In this document: positions 16,387-37,932 of the stretch, one piece after another
Position numbering within the stretch: position 1 is the first letter of the stretch
Layout of the letters: every line of letters begins with the position of its first letter
Source: Gillisia hiemivivida
GTDB lineage: Bacteria; Bacteroidota; Bacteroidia; Flavobacteriales; Flavobacteriaceae
Assembly (NCBI RefSeq): GCF_007997295.1
Contig: NZ_VORY01000001.1
Coordinates: 124,001-188,000 of the forward strand
Direction: 5' to 3'
DNA length: 64,000 bases
The notes under the pieces: model-generated
What the model saw: the letters and a program-made list of their open reading frames with translations, nothing else
What the model was told of the DNA's origin: nothing
The model's database searches: none
Translations under genes and position numbers: made by a program

Positions 16387-17967
16387 ATGGCCGAAGTAAA
16401 TCCAGCTGAAGTTTCAGCAATATTAAAAAAACAACTTTCAGGTTTTGAAGCAAAAGCTACTTTAGACGAAGTAGGAACAGTACTAACCGTTGGGGATGGT
16501 ATTGCACGTATTTATGGTTTAGCTAATGCTCAATATGGAGAATTAGTTGAATTTGAAAGTGGATTAGAAGGAATTGTACTTAACCTTGAGGAAGACAATG
16601 TTGGGGTAGTACTTTTAGGACCTTCTAAAGAAATTAAAGAAGGATCTGTAGCTAAGAGAACTCAGCGTATTGCTTCTATCAATGTTGGTGAAGGAATTAC
16701 AGGTAGAGTTATAGATACTTTGGGAGCTCCAATAGATGGAAAAGGTCCTATTCAAGGAAAAACTTACGAAATGCCATTGGAGCGTAAAGCACCAGGGGTT
16801 ATTTTCCGTGAACCAGTTACAGAGCCTATGCAAACAGGGATCAAAGCTATTGATGCTATGGTGCCAGTTGGAAGAGGACAAAGAGAGTTAGTTATTGGTG
16901 ACCGTCAGACAGGTAAAACTGCTGTGTGTATTGATACTATCTTGAATCAAAAAGAATTTTACGATGCAGGACATCCTGTACATTGTATATATGTGGCTAT
17001 TGGACAAAAAGCTTCTACTGTTGCAGGAATTGCTCAGAAATTAGAAGCAAAAGGTGCTTTAGCTTATACTACTATTGTTGCGGCAAACGCATCAGACCCT
17101 GCTCCAATGCAAGTATATGCTCCTTTTGCAGGTGCTGCAATTGGTGAGTATTTTAGAGATACTGGTCGTCCAGCACTTATCGTATTTGATGATCTTTCTA
17201 AACAAGCAGTAGCATACCGTGAGGTTTCGCTATTATTACGTCGCCCACCGGGACGTGAAGCATATCCTGGGGATGTATTTTTCTTACACTCTAGATTGTT
17301 AGAGCGTGCGGCAAAAGTAATTAACAATGACAAGATCGCTTCAGAAATGAATGATCTTCCAGATTCTATTAAGCATTTGGTAAAAGGTGGTGGTTCTTTA
17401 ACTGCATTGCCAATTATTGAAACTCAGGCAGGAGATGTTTCTGCATATATTCCAACCAATGTAATTTCGATTACAGATGGTCAGATCTTCTTAACATCAG
17501 ATTTATTTAACTCTGGGGTTCGTCCAGCGATTAACGTAGGTATTTCTGTATCTCGTGTGGGTGGAAATGCTCAGATAAAAGCGATGAAAAAGGTTGCAGG
17601 TACTTTAAAATTAGACCAGGCGCAATTCCGTGAATTGGAAGCATTTGCTAAGTTTGGATCTGATCTTGATGCTGCTACTTTAAATATTATTGAAAGAGGA
17701 AAGCGTAACGTAGAAATCTTGAAACAAGCAGAGAATGACCCTTTCCCGGTAGAAGATCAAATTGCAATTATTTTTGCAGGAGCTAAGAACCTTTTGAGAG
17801 ATGTTCCTGTTAACAAGGTGAAAGAATTTGAAAAAGAGTATTTAGAATACTTGAATTTAAAACATCGTGCTACTTTAGATGGTTTAAAAGCTGGAAAACT
17901 TACAGATGAAATTACAGATACTTTGGTGTCATCTGCAAAAGAGATTTCTTCAAAATATAAAGCATAA
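16387..17967 (+). CDS. atpA: ATP synthase F1 subunit alpha
   Basis: Non-catalytic nucleotide-binding subunit of F1, 526 residues. Seen: the N-terminal barrel with [11 protein letters not shown] at 35-45, the Walker A GDRQTGKT at 171-178, [14 protein letters not shown] (Walker B region), the conserved [27 protein letters not shown], and the C-terminal helical domain. It should alternate with the beta subunit, whose gene (atpD) is not in this window; in many Bacteroidota atpD and atpC form a separate operon. Confidence 0.98.
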
Positions 17968-31316: not shown

Positions 31317-32639
31317 TTAGAATTTGAAGCTAAACCCAGAATACACTCCAAAATAATAAGGATTTACATTTCCTGTAGTTTGAGTAAACGTATTTAGTTG
31401 ATACTTGAAAATTGGTTCCAGGTTCAATTGAAATTGAGGGGAAATATTATAATCAATTCCAACTCCAAGATTGGTAGTAAAACTAATATTATTCAAGTTA
31501 TTTGCCTCTCCAAGGTTTGTAGAAAAGTCTGTGGAATTCAACGAGATCATATTATCATTAAGGAATAAGGTACTACCCCCACCAATTATATTCAAACCTA
31601 TCTTTTTGTCTACAAGAACATATTCTATTTCCAAAGGAACCTCAATAAAACCTAATTTTTGGTTTAAATAACCAGCTGTTGGTGAAGCTAAACTAGCCCG
31701 ATTAAATTCGGCAGAAGCGCTCAAATTACTAAACTGCCGAACGGTCCTGTTCTCTATTCTAAAATTAGGAACATTTCCGTCAGAATAATTTATACTGCTT
31801 AATGCTGTAGGATTTACCGCTGCTGTAAAGGCTATATTTTTTGTGTTATAGCTAAGGTCAACTTTGCTAATACCAGATCGAATTTTTATCTTTTCTGAAA
31901 TTTGATACGCTAAATTGATTCCGTAGGAGATCGATATCTCACCACTACTCGCATTATTTTCGAATTGCGGATCTATAGATGTGCCGCTTCCAAAATTATC
32001 GTAATAAATTGGCGCTGCCATAGTAGAAACACGAAGTTTTTTAGGTGAAAGTGTGTTTTCCGCTAAAGAGATTTCTTCAGGTATTAAGGATGGAATCGGA
32101 AGGTCTTTTTTATTCTCTAAGGAAGTTTTACTTTCTTTATTTTCTTTTGAAGCAGTGTTTACTACAGAAGTATTATAATCGCTAAAAGTATACTTATCGC
32201 TAGTAATCAAAGAAATCACTTTTGTATTTCTTTGATTCCCTTCAGTATTGGAGCCCTTAATAATTTCCCCTGTAATCTCGGCTGCTGCTTTATTGTTTGT
32301 GTCCTGTATTATAGCCTTAAGTATAATAGAAGACTTAATCATGTTTTGGGTGTATTGCTGAGAGGCCAAACTGATGTTTAAAGCGTCGTCATTAACCAGC
32401 GTAGATATTGTTGGAGAATTGCTAGCGGGATTCTTGAAGAGACCGCTGGTATAGTTTATAAATAAGGCAAGTAATGCGGCAACCCCTGCTATTTTATACC
32501 ATAAAGGTAAAACTCGATTCTTTCTTTTATTTTCATTTAATCGTGAGGAGATATTCTCCCACACCACATCGCGCGGAGTCGCTTCGAAATCCTTAAATTT
32601 CTCCTGAAAAACTCTATCTATGTGTTTTTTTTCTTCCAT
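31317..32639 (-). CDS. Membrane-tethered protein with outer-membrane beta-barrel domain, ECF sigma partner
   Basis: 440 residues in distinct parts. Residues 1-43 are charged and cytoplasmic in prediction, with a VWENISSRLNENKRKNR helix as at the N-terminus of sigma-linked membrane proteins. One membrane helix follows (about 46-62, LWYKIAGVAALLALFIN). A Ser/Asn/Thr/Lys-rich linker runs to about 225. The last 210 residues are alternating beta strands with aromatic ends (ISYGINLAYQIS, LGFIEVPLEIEYVLVDKKIGLNIIGGG, FTTNLGVGIDYNIS) ending in GFSFKF, as in 8-stranded outer-membrane barrels of the PorT-like type. It starts 2 bases after the sigma gene stop. An anti-sigma or signal role is inferred from position and layout. 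Confidence 0.75.
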   Translation of the reverse strand: MEEKKHIDRVFQEKFKDFEATPRDVVWENISSRLNENKRKNRVLPLWYKIAGVAALLALFINYTSGLFKNPASNSPTISTLVNDDALNISLASQQYTQNMIKSSIILKAIIQDTNNKAAAEITGEIIKGSNTEGNQRNTKVISLITSDKYTFSDYNTSVVNTASKENKESKTSLENKKDLPIPSLIPEEISLAENTLSPKKLRVSTMAAPIYYDNFGSGTSIDPQFENNASSGEISISYGINLAYQISEKIKIRSGISKVDLSYNTKNIAFTAAVNPTALSSINYSDGNVPNFRIENRTVRQFSNLSASAEFNRASLASPTAGYLNQKLGFIEVPLEIEYVLVDKKIGLNIIGGGSTLFLNDNMISLNSTDFSTNLGEANNLNNISFTTNLGVGIDYNISPQFQLNLEPIFKYQLNTFTQTTGNVNPYYFGVYSGFSFKF

Positions 32640-32641
32640 TC

Positions 32642-33184
32642 CTAATAAGACTGTGCAACAGGCATAACTTGACTGGCTTCAATCTTTTCTTTTAATATAA
32701 TTCGTGCTCTTGCCAAATTAGATTTGGATGTGCCCACAGAGATTTGCATCATTTCTGCTATCTCTTTATGAGAATATCCATCTAACGCATAAAAATTAAA
32801 TACCTGCCTATATCTATCTGGCAATTCTTGTATGATCTTTAATAAATAATCTACGGAAACTAATTCATCATCAATTTCTACTTCTGGTTCTTTTAAATGT
32901 TCTTCATTAACAATTTCAAAAACTGTCTGTTTTCTGTATTTCTGAAGTGTGTTATTGATCATTACACGCTTCATCCAACCTTCAAAAGAACCTTTATCTT
33001 GGTACTGTTTGATTTTATTAAATATTATAATAAAACCATCCTGCAGGTTGTCTTCAGCCTGCTGATAGCTATTAGAATATTTTAAGCAAACAGAAAACAA
33101 TTTATTGGCGTAAAGCCTATACAATTGTTCCTGTGCTTTTATATCCTGTTTTTTACAGTTATGTATGAGTTTTTCTAAACTCAA
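32642..33184 (-). CDS. ECF-type RNA polymerase sigma-70 factor
   Basis: 180 residues with regions 2 and 4 only. Region 2: YRLYANKLFSVCLKYSNS, AEDNLQDGFIIIFNKI (core binding and -10 recognition) and FEGWMKRVMINN. Region 4: LPDRYRQVFNFYALDGYSHKEIA with the helix-turn-helix ending GTSKSNLARARIILK. The start is TTG at 33184 (MSLEKLIHN). It is the middle gene of three: a lipoprotein gene ends 24 bases before it and the barrel protein begins 2 bases after it. It probably answers an envelope signal; target promoters are unknown. Confidence 0.92.
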   Translation of the reverse strand: MSLEKLIHNCKKQDIKAQEQLYRLYANKLFSVCLKYSNSYQQAEDNLQDGFIIIFNKIKQYQDKGSFEGWMKRVMINNTLQKYRKQTVFEIVNEEHLKEPEVEIDDELVSVDYLLKIIQELPDRYRQVFNFYALDGYSHKEIAEMMQISVGTSKSNLARARIILKEKIEASQVMPVAQSY

Positions 33185-33208
33185 TAGTTGGGGTGATTTT
33201 ATTAATAT

Positions 33209-33628
33209 TTAAAGATCTGACGGGATAATGGGAACCTCTTTTGTTAAAAACATGTCTTCACCTACTGAAGATTTTCCCTGCCAGAACCTAAAGATATAAA
33301 AATCCTCCCGTTCTACAACAAAATTTAATTTTGCTGTTTCCTGTAAATTACCGTTTGTACTACAATTATTATTGACTGATCTGTAATTGTTTACAACACC
33401 AACTACAATTGTATTCTCATTTTTAGAGACGTCAAAGCCCGAAAAATAATGACAATGTGTAGTTTTTTTATAAAGAACATCAAACTCGTAAGCTTGCCCA
33501 GTTTTTAAACTATCTGGGATGTTTACAGATACTGTTGGAGCTAATTCTTGATTTAAAGATTCACCATCATCTTTTGAACAACCTAATATTAGGTAAGCAA
33601 CAAATATCAACAACGGTAGTTTTTTCAT
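33209..33628 (-). CDS. Small lipoprotein heading the ECF sigma operon
   Basis: With the ATG at 33628: 139 residues, signal peptide with lipobox LGC (Cys17) followed by SKDD, a start typical of flavobacterial lipoproteins. The mature part is predicted beta-rich, with TVSVNIPDSLKTGQAYEFDV, THCHYFSGFDVS and a pair of cysteine- and asparagine-rich segments (NNNCSTNG). No family recognised. A longer start at 33643 adds MLVIE before the Met and weakens the signal peptide. Being first in the operon it may be the sensor or a regulated product; this is inference. Confidence 0.7.
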   Translation of the reverse strand: MKKLPLLIFVAYLILGCSKDDGESLNQELAPTVSVNIPDSLKTGQAYEFDVLYKKTTHCHYFSGFDVSKNENTIVVGVVNNYRSVNNNCSTNGNLQETAKLNFVVEREDFYIFRFWQGKSSVGEDMFLTKEVPIIPSDL

Positions 33629-33702
33629 TTCAATAACCAACAAACCTTACAGGTTCTATATTTTACAGATGCGTTTTTAACTAAAGGGTTGCGTATAAAC
33701 AT

Positions 33703-34771: not shown

Positions 34772-35038
34772 TTCTTCTTTTTTATTTGCGTGCTGCTAAA
34801 ATAGTACAAGTTTTCCTTCACTACAATTTTAACACGCAACCTTTTTAGATTATAAGCATCTTATTTATAGTAAGACCAATAAGTATGCATTTTATAAAAA
34901 TAAGCTTAATCTTGAATGGAGTTGATTCTGGTGTTTCTATACTTGGGGTTGGAAATATTAGAATTGATGGTGGATAACGTTATTTGATTGTTTTATCGAA
35001 AAACTTAAAATAATAAATAACGAATTAGCCATTCATAA
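34772..35038. other. Long non-coding gap between divergent recA and trhO
   Basis: The 367-base gap between recA and trhO starts contains no supported gene in this part; the longest small frame (34903 onward, about 30 codons) has no support. A near -7 box for recA (TATTTTAG, one mismatch) lies about 25-30 bases upstream of recA on the minus strand. The gap ends in a strong terminator (next entry), so an unannotated small RNA could lie here. Confidence 0.4.
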
Positions 35039-35077
35039 AAAATGCCTTGAAAAATGAATTTCAAGGCATTTTTTTTG
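35039..35077 (+). terminator. Strong hairpin with T-run, no gene upstream
   Basis: AATGCCTTGAAA / TTTCAAGGCATT with a 6-base loop, an A-tract before it and eight T after it: a textbook intrinsic terminator in both directions. It lies between two divergent starts, so it ends no annotated gene. It is upstream of the trhO promoter box (35094), so it is not an attenuator of trhO. Confidence 0.75.
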
Positions 35078-35138: not shown

Positions 35139-36170
35139 ATGCAACTGTACAATAAACTAAGCGCAAAGGAAAGAGCTACTCTTATCGAGGAAGCCGGGGA
35201 AGACCGGTTGACACTTTCTTTTTACGCCTACGCCAAAATTGGAAATCCAAAATTATTTAGAAATTATCTTTTTATTGCCTGGGATGCGATGGAGGTTCTT
35301 GGAAGGATTTATATCGCCCACGAAGGCATAAACGCACAACTTTCTGTTCCTGCTAAGAAATTCGATGAATTCAAAAATTTCTTAGATAGCATTTATTTTC
35401 TTGAAAATATAAGGTTGAATATTGCAATTGAGCATGATTTAAAATCTTTTCTGAAGCTAAAAGTGAAAGTTAGAGATAAGATTGTTGCAGATGGTTTGGA
35501 AGACGAAAGCTTCGATGTTACCAACAAAGGGGTGCATGTTGATGCCGATAAATTTAATGAACTTCTAAATGATCCCAATACCATATTGGTAGATATGCGA
35601 AATCATTATGAGAGCGAAATAGGCCATTTTAAAGGCGCTATAACTCCAGATGTGGATACTTTTCGTGACTCTTTATCTATAATAGAAGAAGATCTAAAAG
35701 AGCATAAAGAAGACAAGAATCTGGTAATGTATTGTACCGGAGGGATTAGATGTGAAAAGGCTAGTGCATATTATAAACACAAAGGTTTCAAAAAGGTTTT
35801 TCAATTAGAAGGCGGGATTATTGAGTATGCCAGACAAGTTGAAAACCTATCTTTAGAAAATAAATTTGTGGGTAAAAATTTCGTTTTCGATCATAGACGT
35901 GGAGAGCGCATTACAGATGAAGTAATTTCCAATTGCCACCAATGCGGAAAAGCTTGTGACACACATGTAAACTGTGCAAATGAAGCCTGCCATTTGTTGT
36001 TTATTCAATGCGAAGAATGTTCTAAAACAATGGATACGTGTTGTTCTAATACCTGTAAGGAGATAAACGCACTTCCTTTTGAAGAGCAAAAAGCACTTAG
36101 AAAAGGGATACCAAATAGCAACAAGATCTTTAAAAAAGGAAGGTCTGAAGTGTTAAAGTACAAGCATTAA
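35139..36170 (+). CDS. trhO: tRNA uridine(34) hydroxylase (rhodanese family)
   Basis: Oxygen-dependent 5-hydroxylation of wobble uridine in some tRNAs (YceA/TrhO). 343 residues: N-terminal acylphosphatase-like domain with IAHEGINAQLSVP at 59-71, rhodanese domain with VDMRNHYESEIGHFKGA at 151-167 and the catalytic loop YCTGGIRCEKA (Cys199 and Cys205). A C-terminal cysteine-rich tail (about 260-310, CHQCGKACDTHVNC, CEECSKTMDTCC) is as in the rhodanese-C extension of this family and may bind zinc. Single gene with its own promoter. Confidence 0.93.
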   Translation: MQLYNKLSAKERATLIEEAGEDRLTLSFYAYAKIGNPKLFRNYLFIAWDAMEVLGRIYIAHEGINAQLSVPAKKFDEFKNFLDSIYFLENIRLNIAIEHDLKSFLKLKVKVRDKIVADGLEDESFDVTNKGVHVDADKFNELLNDPNTILVDMRNHYESEIGHFKGAITPDVDTFRDSLSIIEEDLKEHKEDKNLVMYCTGGIRCEKASAYYKHKGFKKVFQLEGGIIEYARQVENLSLENKFVGKNFVFDHRRGERITDEVISNCHQCGKACDTHVNCANEACHLLFIQCEECSKTMDTCCSNTCKEINALPFEEQKALRKGIPNSNKIFKKGRSEVLKYKH

Positions 36171-36287: not shown

Positions 36288-37454
36288 ATGGGATGTAGTA
36301 CTTGCGCGACCGGGAAAGATGGTCAGCCAAAAGGATGTAAAAATAACGGAACCTGTGGTTCTGATGGTTGTAATAAATTAACTGTTTTTGATTGGCTTGC
36401 TAACATGTCTTTACCCAATGGGGTAGAGCCATTCAACTGTGTAGAGGTTCGATTTAAAAATGGTAGAAAACAATTTTTTCATAATCCCGAAAACTTAACT
36501 TTAAGCATTGCAGATGTGGTAGCTACGGAAGCTTCACCGGGTCACGATGTTGGTGTTGTAACACTTACCGGGGAATTGGTAAGAGTTCAAATGAAAAAGA
36601 AGAAAGTTAAAGAGGACAGTGAAGAGGTACTTAAGATATATAGAAAAGCTTCTCAAAGAGATATAGATGTTTGGCAGGAAGCAAGAGATAAAGAAGATAA
36701 AATGAAGGTTCGTGCCAGAGAAATAGCCATTAGGTTAGATCTTCGCATGAAAATTAGTGATATAGAATTTCAAGGAGATGGTTCTAAAGCCACTTTCTAT
36801 TATACTGCTGAAGAACGAGTGGATTTCCGTCAGCTTATTAAGGAGTTTGCAAGAGAATTCAATACCCGTATAGAAATGCGTCAAATTGGATTCCGTCAGG
36901 AAGCAGCCCGATTAGGTGGAATTGGATCTTGTGGAAGAGAATTATGTTGTTCTACATGGTTAACAGATTTTAGATCTGTAAATACTTCCGCAGCGAGATA
37001 TCAACAATTATCATTGAACCCACAAAAATTAGCAGGTCAATGTGGGAAATTGAAATGTTGTTTGAATTATGAGTTAGACACTTATTTAGATGCGCTTAAG
37101 GATTTTCCGAAGACAGACACCAAACTTTACACTAAAAAGGGAACAGCTGTTTGCCAAAAAATAGATATTTTCCAAGGTGTGTTATGGTATGCCTATGAAG
37201 GGGAATGGATGAATTGGCATAAATTAACTGCTGAACAAGCTTCTAAAATTGTGAAAGCAAATATCGCAAAAGAGACTATTGCTAGTTTAGAAGAATATGA
37301 AGTTTTAGTAGAAGTTGAAAAAGCTTCAAAAACAGACTACACCAATGTTGTTGGGCAAGATAGCCTTACAAGGTTTGATACTCCAAAGTCAAACAATACT
37401 AAGAAACGAAGAAAAAATAAACGCAAAAAAGGAAAACCGTCCAATAATGGCTAG
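36288..37454 (+). CDS. ricT: RicT/YaaT PSP1-domain protein
   Basis: 388 residues from the ATG at 36288. The N-terminus is rich in cysteine (MGCSTCATGKDGQPKGCKNN), the middle holds the PSP1 core (FNTRIEMRQIGFRQEAARLG, then SCGRELCCSTWL and CGKLKCCLNYE), and the C-terminus is lysine-rich (KKRRKNKRKKGKP). In Bacillus the homologue is part of an iron-sulfur complex (RicAFT) acting on RNA processing; RicA and RicF are not in this window. The upstream in-frame extension from 36222 lacks family character. The end overlaps the start of gldH by 8 bases. Confidence 0.9.
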   Translation: MGCSTCATGKDGQPKGCKNNGTCGSDGCNKLTVFDWLANMSLPNGVEPFNCVEVRFKNGRKQFFHNPENLTLSIADVVATEASPGHDVGVVTLTGELVRVQMKKKKVKEDSEEVLKIYRKASQRDIDVWQEARDKEDKMKVRAREIAIRLDLRMKISDIEFQGDGSKATFYYTAEERVDFRQLIKEFAREFNTRIEMRQIGFRQEAARLGGIGSCGRELCCSTWLTDFRSVNTSAARYQQLSLNPQKLAGQCGKLKCCLNYELDTYLDALKDFPKTDTKLYTKKGTAVCQKIDIFQGVLWYAYEGEWMNWHKLTAEQASKIVKANIAKETIASLEEYEVLVEVEKASKTDYTNVVGQDSLTRFDTPKSNNTKKRRKNKRKKGKPSNNG

Positions 37455-37932
37455 ATCTTTTTTATTGATTTTATTATTAGCTACTGTTTTTATTGGCTGT
37501 GATAAAGATCGAGTATTCGACGAATATAAAAGTCTTCCTAATCAATGGAATAAAGATTCAGTTTTAACGTTTACTCTTAAAAACATAGACACTTTACAAA
37601 GCTATAATTTGTTTATCAATGTTAGGAATAATAACGATTTGGAATACAGTAACCTGTTCTTAATTTCAGAGATCCAGTTTCCACAAGGCAAAGTTATTAC
37701 AGACACTTTGGAATATGAAATGGCAGCTCCTAGTGGAGAATGGCTTGGCATAGGATTTGGAGATGTAAAAGAAAATAAACTTTGGTATAAGGAGCAAGTT
37801 AAGTTCCCAGAGTCAGGAAAATATAAGGTTTCCCTTCAACATGCTATGCGTAAGAATGGAAACGAAAAAGGAATAGAAAATCTTAAAGGGATTACTGAAA
37901 TAGGTTTCCGAATTGAAAAAACTCCCAATTAA
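37447..37932 (+). CDS. gldH: Gliding motility lipoprotein GldH
   Basis: 161 residues from the ATG at 37447; signal peptide with lipobox IGC (Cys18), then DKDRVFDEYKSLPNQWNKDS, which is the conserved start of mature GldH. The body is a beta-sandwich-like domain with YNLFINVRNNNDLEYSNLFL and FPQGKVITDTLEYEMA. GldH is needed for gliding in Flavobacterium and for stability of type IX secretion parts. It overlaps ricT by 8 bases and is followed 4 bases later by the PBP1A gene, an order I recall as conserved in flavobacteria. Confidence 0.92.
   Translation: MARSFLLILLLATVFIGCDKDRVFDEYKSLPNQWNKDSVLTFTLKNIDTLQSYNLFINVRNNNDLEYSNLFLISEIQFPQGKVITDTLEYEMAAPSGEWLGIGFGDVKENKLWYKEQVKFPESGKYKVSLQHAMRKNGNEKGIENLKGITEIGFRIEKTPN

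Follow-up and report, generated by a model that had tools for sequence, protein, structure and literature searches.

The operon at positions 31317-33628 on the minus strand of the window (the whole 64,000-nucleotide stretch of DNA that was analysed) encodes a lipoprotein, an ECF sigma factor and a 440-residue protein, in that order. It very probably constitutes an outer-membrane stress circuit, in which the 440-residue protein is an anti-sigma factor that holds the sigma factor, its barrel monitors the outer membrane, and the freed sigma factor reads GCAACC-N15-CATCT promoters. The architecture, the conserved gene order, the conservation of the promoter and the co-occurrence of the components are computed here. 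The system is real, well conserved and of a known kind, and the branch that it represents has a lipoprotein, a promoter and a short transcript of its own.

Architecture of the operon and of the 440-residue protein

The host is a marine bacterium related to Gillisia. Its genome falls in the Gillisia group, and the nearest named record is that of Gillisia mitskevichiae, with 85% identity over the 440-residue protein. The features of the operon are as follows.

33209..33628, minus strand: lipoprotein gene, 139 aa, lipobox LILGC, first in the operon (open reading frame and signal)
32642..33184, minus strand: ECF sigma factor gene, 180 aa, TTG start (Sigma70_r2 1.5e-13, Sigma70_r4_2 1.3e-17)
31317..32639, minus strand: gene of the 440-aa putative anti-sigma protein (open reading frame, homologue searches, AlphaFold2, alignment)
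32505..32639, minus strand: cytoplasmic part, residues 1-45, presumed to bind sigma (AlphaFold2; mean pairwise identity 0.49 among 81 members)
32439..32504, minus strand: predicted inner-membrane helix, residues 46-67 (AlphaFold2, alignment; identity 0.44)
32037..32438, minus strand: periplasmic linker, residues 68-201, mostly predicted disordered (AlphaFold2; identity 0.155)
31320..32036, minus strand: predicted outer-membrane 8-strand barrel, residues 202-440, ending FSFKF (Pfam, AlphaFold2, structure comparison; identity 0.46)

The original prediction placed three tightly packed genes in this region; its coordinates are exact, and the gaps between the genes are 2 and 24 bases. Among the family models compared, those matched by the sigma factor are general ECF families only. 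Gene order was counted in named genomes at the best 80 of 541 related loci, so that the counts cover closer relatives only. In 79 of these best 80 loci the sigma gene lies directly upstream of the anti-sigma gene, and the exception (L099) starts at a contig end, so that its upstream gene is cut off. The lipoprotein gene lies ahead of the sigma gene in 67 of the same 80 loci and is missing or unrecognised beside it in 13, some of which keep sigma and anti-sigma. Sigma is adjacent to anti-sigma in all of 20 wider Bacteroidia loci (18 from the best homologue matches and 2 from a search with NigD_C, PF17415), and the lipoprotein profile matches none of these 20. In one Gillisia genome (G013; L025 and L186), the anti-sigma gene is split into at least three open reading frames, with sigma, lipoprotein and both promoters present, which is either a real loss or an assembly error.

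Members of the family of the 440-residue protein are 30% to 85% identical to the window protein. AlphaFold2, supplied with an 81-row alignment, predicts helices at residues 4-15, 24-36 and 46-67, as well as one at 92-118 with low confidence, and eight strands between residues 202 and 439, in a block with pLDDT 88-98 except for the loop 301-320. The pLDDT is below 50 at residues 70-94 and 120-195. The best solved structures for residues 199-440 include NspA (Z 17.7), OprF (Z 17.5), OmpA (Z 16-17.6) and OmpW (Z 16.8), and Foldseek matches the barrel part to OmpA with E 4e-8. The window protein itself scores below the cut-off against Pfam barrel families (E 9e-4 and 0.0075), and 76 and 64 of the 81 members match OMP_b-brl and OMP_b-brl_2 respectively (E<=1). 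The C-terminal aromatic residue of a barrel is its expected assembly signal, and this residue is Phe in 80 of the 81 members. A hydrophobic segment with positive-inside flanks is seen in 78 of the 81, the residues ahead of the helix being more positive than those behind it. The linker varies from 120 to 233 residues across the 81 members, indicating that it is free to change in length and in sequence while the two ends of the protein are conserved. Residues 1-45, in which Trp27 is invariant, have no match in Pfam, and a sequence search of solved structures with the anti-sigma profile gives no relative at E<=0.1.

These results bear on most of what had been claimed from the sequence at the outset. 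The C-terminal beta-barrel-like domain is now a confidently predicted 8-strand barrel resembling OmpA and NspA (Z 16-18); structure prediction, proposed as a check, points to an outer-membrane barrel and gives no indication of a soluble beta domain, and the aromatic end claimed for it is the conserved Phe. The membrane helix given as residues 46-62 is present and starts at 46, but ends at about 67 in the model. The linker was overestimated at 160 residues and has about 135-140, the measure applied to the 81 members giving 140 in the window protein. A cleaved signal peptide had been named as an alternative to the membrane helix. This candidate was rejected on account of the conserved, charged domain of about 45 residues (49% identity) that precedes the helix in the cytoplasm, an arrangement unlike that of a cleaved signal. 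Prediction and conservation support the idea that the protein spans both membranes in one chain: an inner-membrane helix and an outer-membrane barrel are predicted within the same protein, which is encoded beside an ECF sigma gene.

The linker is long and disordered and therefore cleavable, and this is what would favour a reading in which the inner-membrane and outer-membrane parts do not act simultaneously, with the barrel-like part staying in the periplasm or the protein being cut during maturation. This reading is very improbable in view of the strong barrel prediction, the conserved C-terminal Phe and the description of homologues as spanning both membranes. The reading preferred here is that of a single chain with both membrane parts in place.

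The same genome encodes a second related ECF sigma factor, 39% identical, on contig C36 (L282, 5314-6087 and 6219-7283). An anti-sigma-like protein of 257 aa at this locus matches the cytoplasmic part and the helix and is without the barrel, and the gene after it looks barrel-like by eye, with no match in Pfam. This pair and the next gene may represent the same design in split form.

Relation to Dma and Reo

The original prediction held that no mechanism had been described, but the same architecture and function have been described as Reo (PMC9308784, PMC13114119) and as Dma1-3 (PMC13088901); the statements made here on these and other papers refer to the available portions of their text. An unusual anti-sigma factor of P. 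vulgatus has an outer-membrane barrel, and its loss turns on the sigma regulon (PMC9308784). This factor has been named Reo and spans all five compartments, and the NigD surface lipoproteins depend on EcfO (PMC13114119). Loss of Reo frees sigma, and BcpT raises the sigma gene 33-fold (PMC9308784, PMC13114119). An EcfO recognition sequence is stated to have been identified in B. fragilis (PMC7366714). Dma2 of B. thetaiotaomicron has a four-part architecture and an adjacent ECF21 sigma factor, and its loss acts through Das2 (PMC13088901).

The window family is likened to the published Dma and Reo by description and is of this known kind. As in the window, Dma consists of an N-terminal sigma-binding part (presumed here), a membrane helix, a long disordered tether and a C-terminal barrel, and lies beside an ECF sigma gene (PMC13088901). 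The dma2 operon is among the most induced genes in a dma2 mutant, and the regulon touches SusC/SusD systems (PMC13088901). The neighbours of dma2 in B. thetaiotaomicron are DUF4943 and DUF4858 proteins, whereas the window has an unrelated small lipoprotein ahead of sigma; the promoter and the recA-side transcript described below belong to the window family and are absent from the available Dma text (PMC13088901). In EcfO-Reo of Bacteroides fragilis and Phocaeicola vulgatus, sigma lies upstream of the five-compartment anti-sigma factor, as here (PMC9308784, PMC13114119). NigD surface lipoproteins are in its regulon, one of them beside the pair, since the locus numbers in these two papers indicate a nigD-ecfO-reo neighbourhood, and an outer-membrane stress signal has been proposed. 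A neighbourhood of this type is also seen at the two loci found by the NigD_C search (L245 and L246), in which a NigD-type lipoprotein gene lies divergently beside sigma and a homologous ASD-helix-linker-barrel protein. The profile of the window family hits these two loci with HMM E 6e-8 and 8e-5, and its barrel part aligns with an 8-row wider Bacteroidia set that includes them with a profile-profile probability of 99.9 and E 6.5e-36. A search of open-licence papers found none on a flavobacterial member.

In the FecA-FecR-FecI system, an inner-membrane anti-sigma factor receives information on the outside from an outer-membrane protein. That system uses two chains, which make contact in the periplasm, whereas one chain would do both in the window system. 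FecR-type proteins of outer-membrane signalling sometimes act positively, and the 440-residue protein might likewise be a positive regulator of sigma rather than its inhibitor. We regard this as most unlikely, because loss of a homologue switches the regulon on in both P. vulgatus and B. thetaiotaomicron (PMC9308784, PMC13088901).

A more serious rival, to which we give somewhat less than an even chance, keeps the same circuit but holds that the barrel is a mere client of the assembly machinery and that the protein is a fuse, destroyed when insertion fails, with no ligand sensed and with the lipoprotein as an output like NigD. The conserved aromatic end is consistent with this. Many of the genes induced by BcpT overlap those induced by the BamA inhibitor bacteroidetocin A (PMC9308784), and the window lipoprotein lies behind the sigma promoter, just as the NigDs are EcfO-dependent surface lipoproteins (PMC13114119). 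The barrel, however, is conserved almost as well as the cytoplasmic part (identity 0.46 versus 0.49), which is above the need of an anchor. The findings fit this reading and the sensing of a ligand or a contact alike.

The lipoprotein partner

The lipid-bearing Cys17 of the lipoprotein is followed by SKDD, a surface-export-like signal. The resulting C-S-K-D-D agrees with C-X-K-(D/E)2, the optimal surface-export signal of C. canimorsus lipoproteins in the available text of PMC5080379. At least two acidic residues are found at +2 to +6 in 65 of 68 lipoproteins by script, a count that includes one (L115) scored from the wrong Cys. The lipobox and the acidic export signal after it, by which surface lipoproteins of Bacteroidota are recognised, are both present, so a location on the surface is predicted. 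Besides the lipid Cys, Cys59 and Cys89 are invariant in 68 of 68.

The window lipoprotein has no name in Pfam or NCBIfam. Its model has a beta-sandwich-like fold (pLDDT 90.7), for which the best structural rows are NigD-like lipoproteins of Bacteroidales: row 1 is 3qwn (Z 6.1, 94 aligned, 3.6 A), row 2 is 3k0y (Z 6.0) and row 9 is 3nqi (Z 5.5). All three are below Z 8, and complement domains tie with them. Foldseek gives no row at E<=0.001 with this model, and a sequence search of solved structures gives two chance-level rows only. The NigD family is absent from the matches listed (25 of 29 families) for the 68 members, and a search of the window's own genome with NigD_C is negative at E<=0.001. 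NigD is larger than the window lipoprotein, and the two have no sequence match; their profile-profile alignment is limited to the signal and lipobox region. Membership in NigD is not supported by sequence. Because Z values of about 6 are tied and no sequence link was found, the lipoprotein is best called a positional, and perhaps functional, counterpart of NigD.

The 99 relatives examined include 51 same-family genomes with an anti-sigma match, 43 of which have the lipoprotein (E<1e-30), and 9 same-family genomes without such a match, none of which has it (p 1.6e-6). In two genomes (G009 and G061), the lipoprotein gene lies behind the anti-sigma gene and not before sigma, indicating that the link of the lipoprotein to the system outlives gene order. 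Two loci, L283 (G009) and L285 (G003), are second copies in Gillisia genomes that already have one system, and L284 (G061) is the system copy of a genome of the same order. Of the three, only L285 has the lipoprotein upstream; L283 and L284 have it downstream.

Other lipoproteins were seen in passing. An unlinked paralogue (profile E 2e-17) lies beside recombinase-like genes on a short contig of the same genome (C38; L281, 3355-3798). Single-domain lipoproteins of wider Bacteroidia that match NigD_C (L153-L156) have a conserved GGC..H and D.C pair and lie beside large secreted protease-like genes. An open reading frame at window positions 37315-37932, whose internal ATG start gives a lipoprotein, is one that we take to resemble GldH of gliding motility.

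The lipoprotein might be the actual outside sensor, docking on the barrel from the cell surface in such a way that its binding state or the Cys59-Cys89 pair sets the anti-sigma factor. The place of its gene at the head of the operon in 67 of the best 80 of 541 loci, the agreement of its export signal with C-X-K-(D/E)2 (PMC5080379), the two invariant extra Cys residues and the link kept in either gene order are all consistent with this. Its distances also correlate best with those of the barrel: mirror-tree partial correlations given recA are 0.40 for lipoprotein-barrel versus 0.15 for lipoprotein-ASD, the former falling to 0.29 on average with 45-column barrel subsets. This signal is weak, and it lends the contact little weight, because the expected contact of sigma with the ASD is not singled out by the same method (0.29, below the 0.68 for sigma-barrel). 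In addition, the lipoprotein is absent from some loci with sigma and anti-sigma, and the conserved Cys pair may be structural only. A sensing lipoprotein is a tentative reading, and a rather doubtful one.

Promoter signature, predicted recA-side transcript and proposed circuit

The predicted promoter of the operon and the features beside recA are as follows.

33667..33692, minus strand: predicted ECF promoter GCAACC-N15-CATCT of the operon (end of the -10 element 38 bases before the lipoprotein ATG)
34836..34861, plus strand: second promoter copy, divergent from recA (55 of the best 80 of 541 loci have a copy here)
34868..35076, plus strand: predicted short structured transcript, terminator hairpin at about 35037-35076 (fold z, covariation)
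34885..34977, plus strand: 30-codon open reading frame MHFIKISLILNGVDSGVSILGVGNIRIDGG inside the predicted transcript (pN/pS)
35016..35034, plus strand: invariant 19-nt block AATAACGAATTAGCCATTC after the open reading frame (paired with its end in the consensus fold)

The upstream consensus is ACGCAACC(T/C)TT, followed by GCATCT. Of 79 operons, 74 have the motif in the 250 bases ahead of them, and the spacer is 15 in 73 of these 74. In 200 Markov-shuffled rounds, the average was 0.03 of 79 and the highest count was 1. Two of the five operons without a near motif (L049 and L052) carry it further upstream. Among the same-family genomes, 49 of the 51 with an anti-sigma (Dma) match carry the promoter (<=1 mismatch), as does 1 of the 9 without (Fisher p 1.5e-7, uncorrected for kinship). 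One genome that is 82% complete (G007) has four promoter matches and no anti-sigma or lipoprotein match. By eye, the motif is not evident beside the two NigD-linked loci. These counts suggest that the operon is probably activated by its own sigma factor.

The 27-base form, with at most one mismatch, has 50 matches in 16 Gillisia genomes, 0 to 5 in each and about three sites per genome. The reversed control gives 0 matches in these genomes and five in all over the 99 relatives. Operon and recA-side sites account for 27 of the 50. When 22 of the other 23 are examined, 17, in 14 genomes, are followed by a SusC-like gene whose ATG is 95 to 111 bases away, and 5 have other genes or none behind them, with no SusC-like gene. 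The SusC-like target in the window's own genome has a TonB plug and two CarboxypepD_reg domains. We infer from the promoter position that this transporter gene is a third target of sigma in Gillisia. The SusC-like targets (L225-L231, L236-L244, L205, L219) have a near-constant 5' leader and signal peptide MKKRLNGILTLFLVFVVQLTFAQ and differing bodies. In Salegentibacter and Christiangramia (L047, L048, L055, L065), a further promoter copy lies at about +8200 to +8400 from the operon, and the gene behind it encodes another small lipoprotein with a carboxypeptidase-regulatory-like look. A third, weaker match with spacer 14 at window positions 17573-17597 (minus strand) is probably due to chance.

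The recA-side transcript is predicted to start near 34868 and to end at a hairpin with a T run near 35076, giving about 208 nt; the gene at 35139, which we take to be trhO, lies beyond this terminator. The 211-nt stretch folds at -57.5 kcal/mol (z -6.96), and none of 200 shuffles is as stable. The consensus fold was made from 15 sequences, namely 12 from Gillisia, including the window, and three from Salinimicrobium, with L044 left out because it has no terminator in range. Its helices contain 12 pairs changed on both sides versus 7.5 in shuffles, and 44 such cells versus 16.6. The covariation score is 0.378 versus 0.190 in shuffles, none of 500 reaching 0.378, and at most 0.101 for slid structures, a comparison that favours the consensus structure because it is derived from the same alignment.

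A 30-codon open reading frame ending in DGG or EGG is found at 17 of the 55 divergent sites and at none of the other 38. Its pN/pS is 0.38 in 11 Gillisia sequences versus 0.95 in column shuffles, none of 300 being as low. This count omits one genome (G006, L178), in which codon 5 is an in-frame stop and the RNA helices are kept. The frame ends in DCG in another (G012, L175), and L185 (G005) is without the divergent promoter site. Thirteen of 16 Gillisia genomes and the Salinimicrobium-like G022 have the 19-nt block, each of them once, which makes 14 of 60 genomes; it is found in none of the other 43 genomes searched, and the reversed control gives 0. Transcripts at the divergent sites of other lineages have different short motifs in common. 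These differences do not point to one common function of the transcript. Rfam gives no match at gathering thresholds for ten loci and, for the window stretch, sub-threshold rows only, far below gathering scores. Judged from the sequence, the transcript should be driven by the second promoter copy and should contain an open reading frame under selection.

The envelope-stress sigma factor sigmaE of Escherichia coli has an inner-membrane inhibitor, RseA, and sigma-dependent small RNAs, MicA, RybB and MicL. The recA-side transcript would be an analogue of these RNAs without homology to them, and with a selected open reading frame in Gillisia. It is conceivable, though we do not consider it likely, that Dma/Reo of Flavobacteriaceae is a full envelope-stress circuit, in which the surface lipoprotein and the structured RNA are both made by sigma, the lipoprotein capping or tuning the barrel and the RNA serving as a noncoding arm that adjusts outer-membrane protein synthesis as the sigmaE small RNAs do. 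In Gillisia and Salinimicrobium the RNA would then be dual-function, with the 30-aa DGG peptide.

The circuit that we favour would work as follows. Residues 1-45 of the 440-residue protein would hold the ECF sigma factor at the inner membrane, while the C-terminal barrel in the outer membrane would monitor that membrane. When outer-membrane integrity or barrel assembly fails, or when the contact between lipoprotein and barrel changes, the tether would be cut or altered, and sigma would become free. Free sigma would activate its own operon, raising sigma, inhibitor and surface lipoprotein, and the response would therefore be fast but self-limiting. It would also activate the gene of the short RNA and 30-aa peptide divergent from recA and, in Gillisia, that of the SusC-like outer-membrane transporter. 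This mechanism is drawn from the architecture and, by analogy, from experiments on relatives. That applies to the presumed binding of sigma, its negative control, the kind of signal, the release by proteolysis and the contact of lipoprotein and barrel, and also to the likely functions of the lipoprotein and the RNA.

A protein of this kind, extending from the cytoplasm into the outer membrane and holding a stress regulator inactive, is already known from gut Bacteroides. New in the Flavobacteriaceae branch are the surface lipoprotein, a promoter signal of its own and an undescribed small structured RNA, predicted to encode a tiny protein. This branch supplies what the available portions of the papers on the gut systems leave open, namely a promoter signature, a small regulon, a lipoprotein as constant partner and a structured transcript of short length. 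With sigma and the outer membrane linked by one chain, the passage of stress across two membranes can be studied directly; the sharp promoter signature reads out the regulon in any genome, and sensor, partner and output become testable in easily grown aerobic bacteria.
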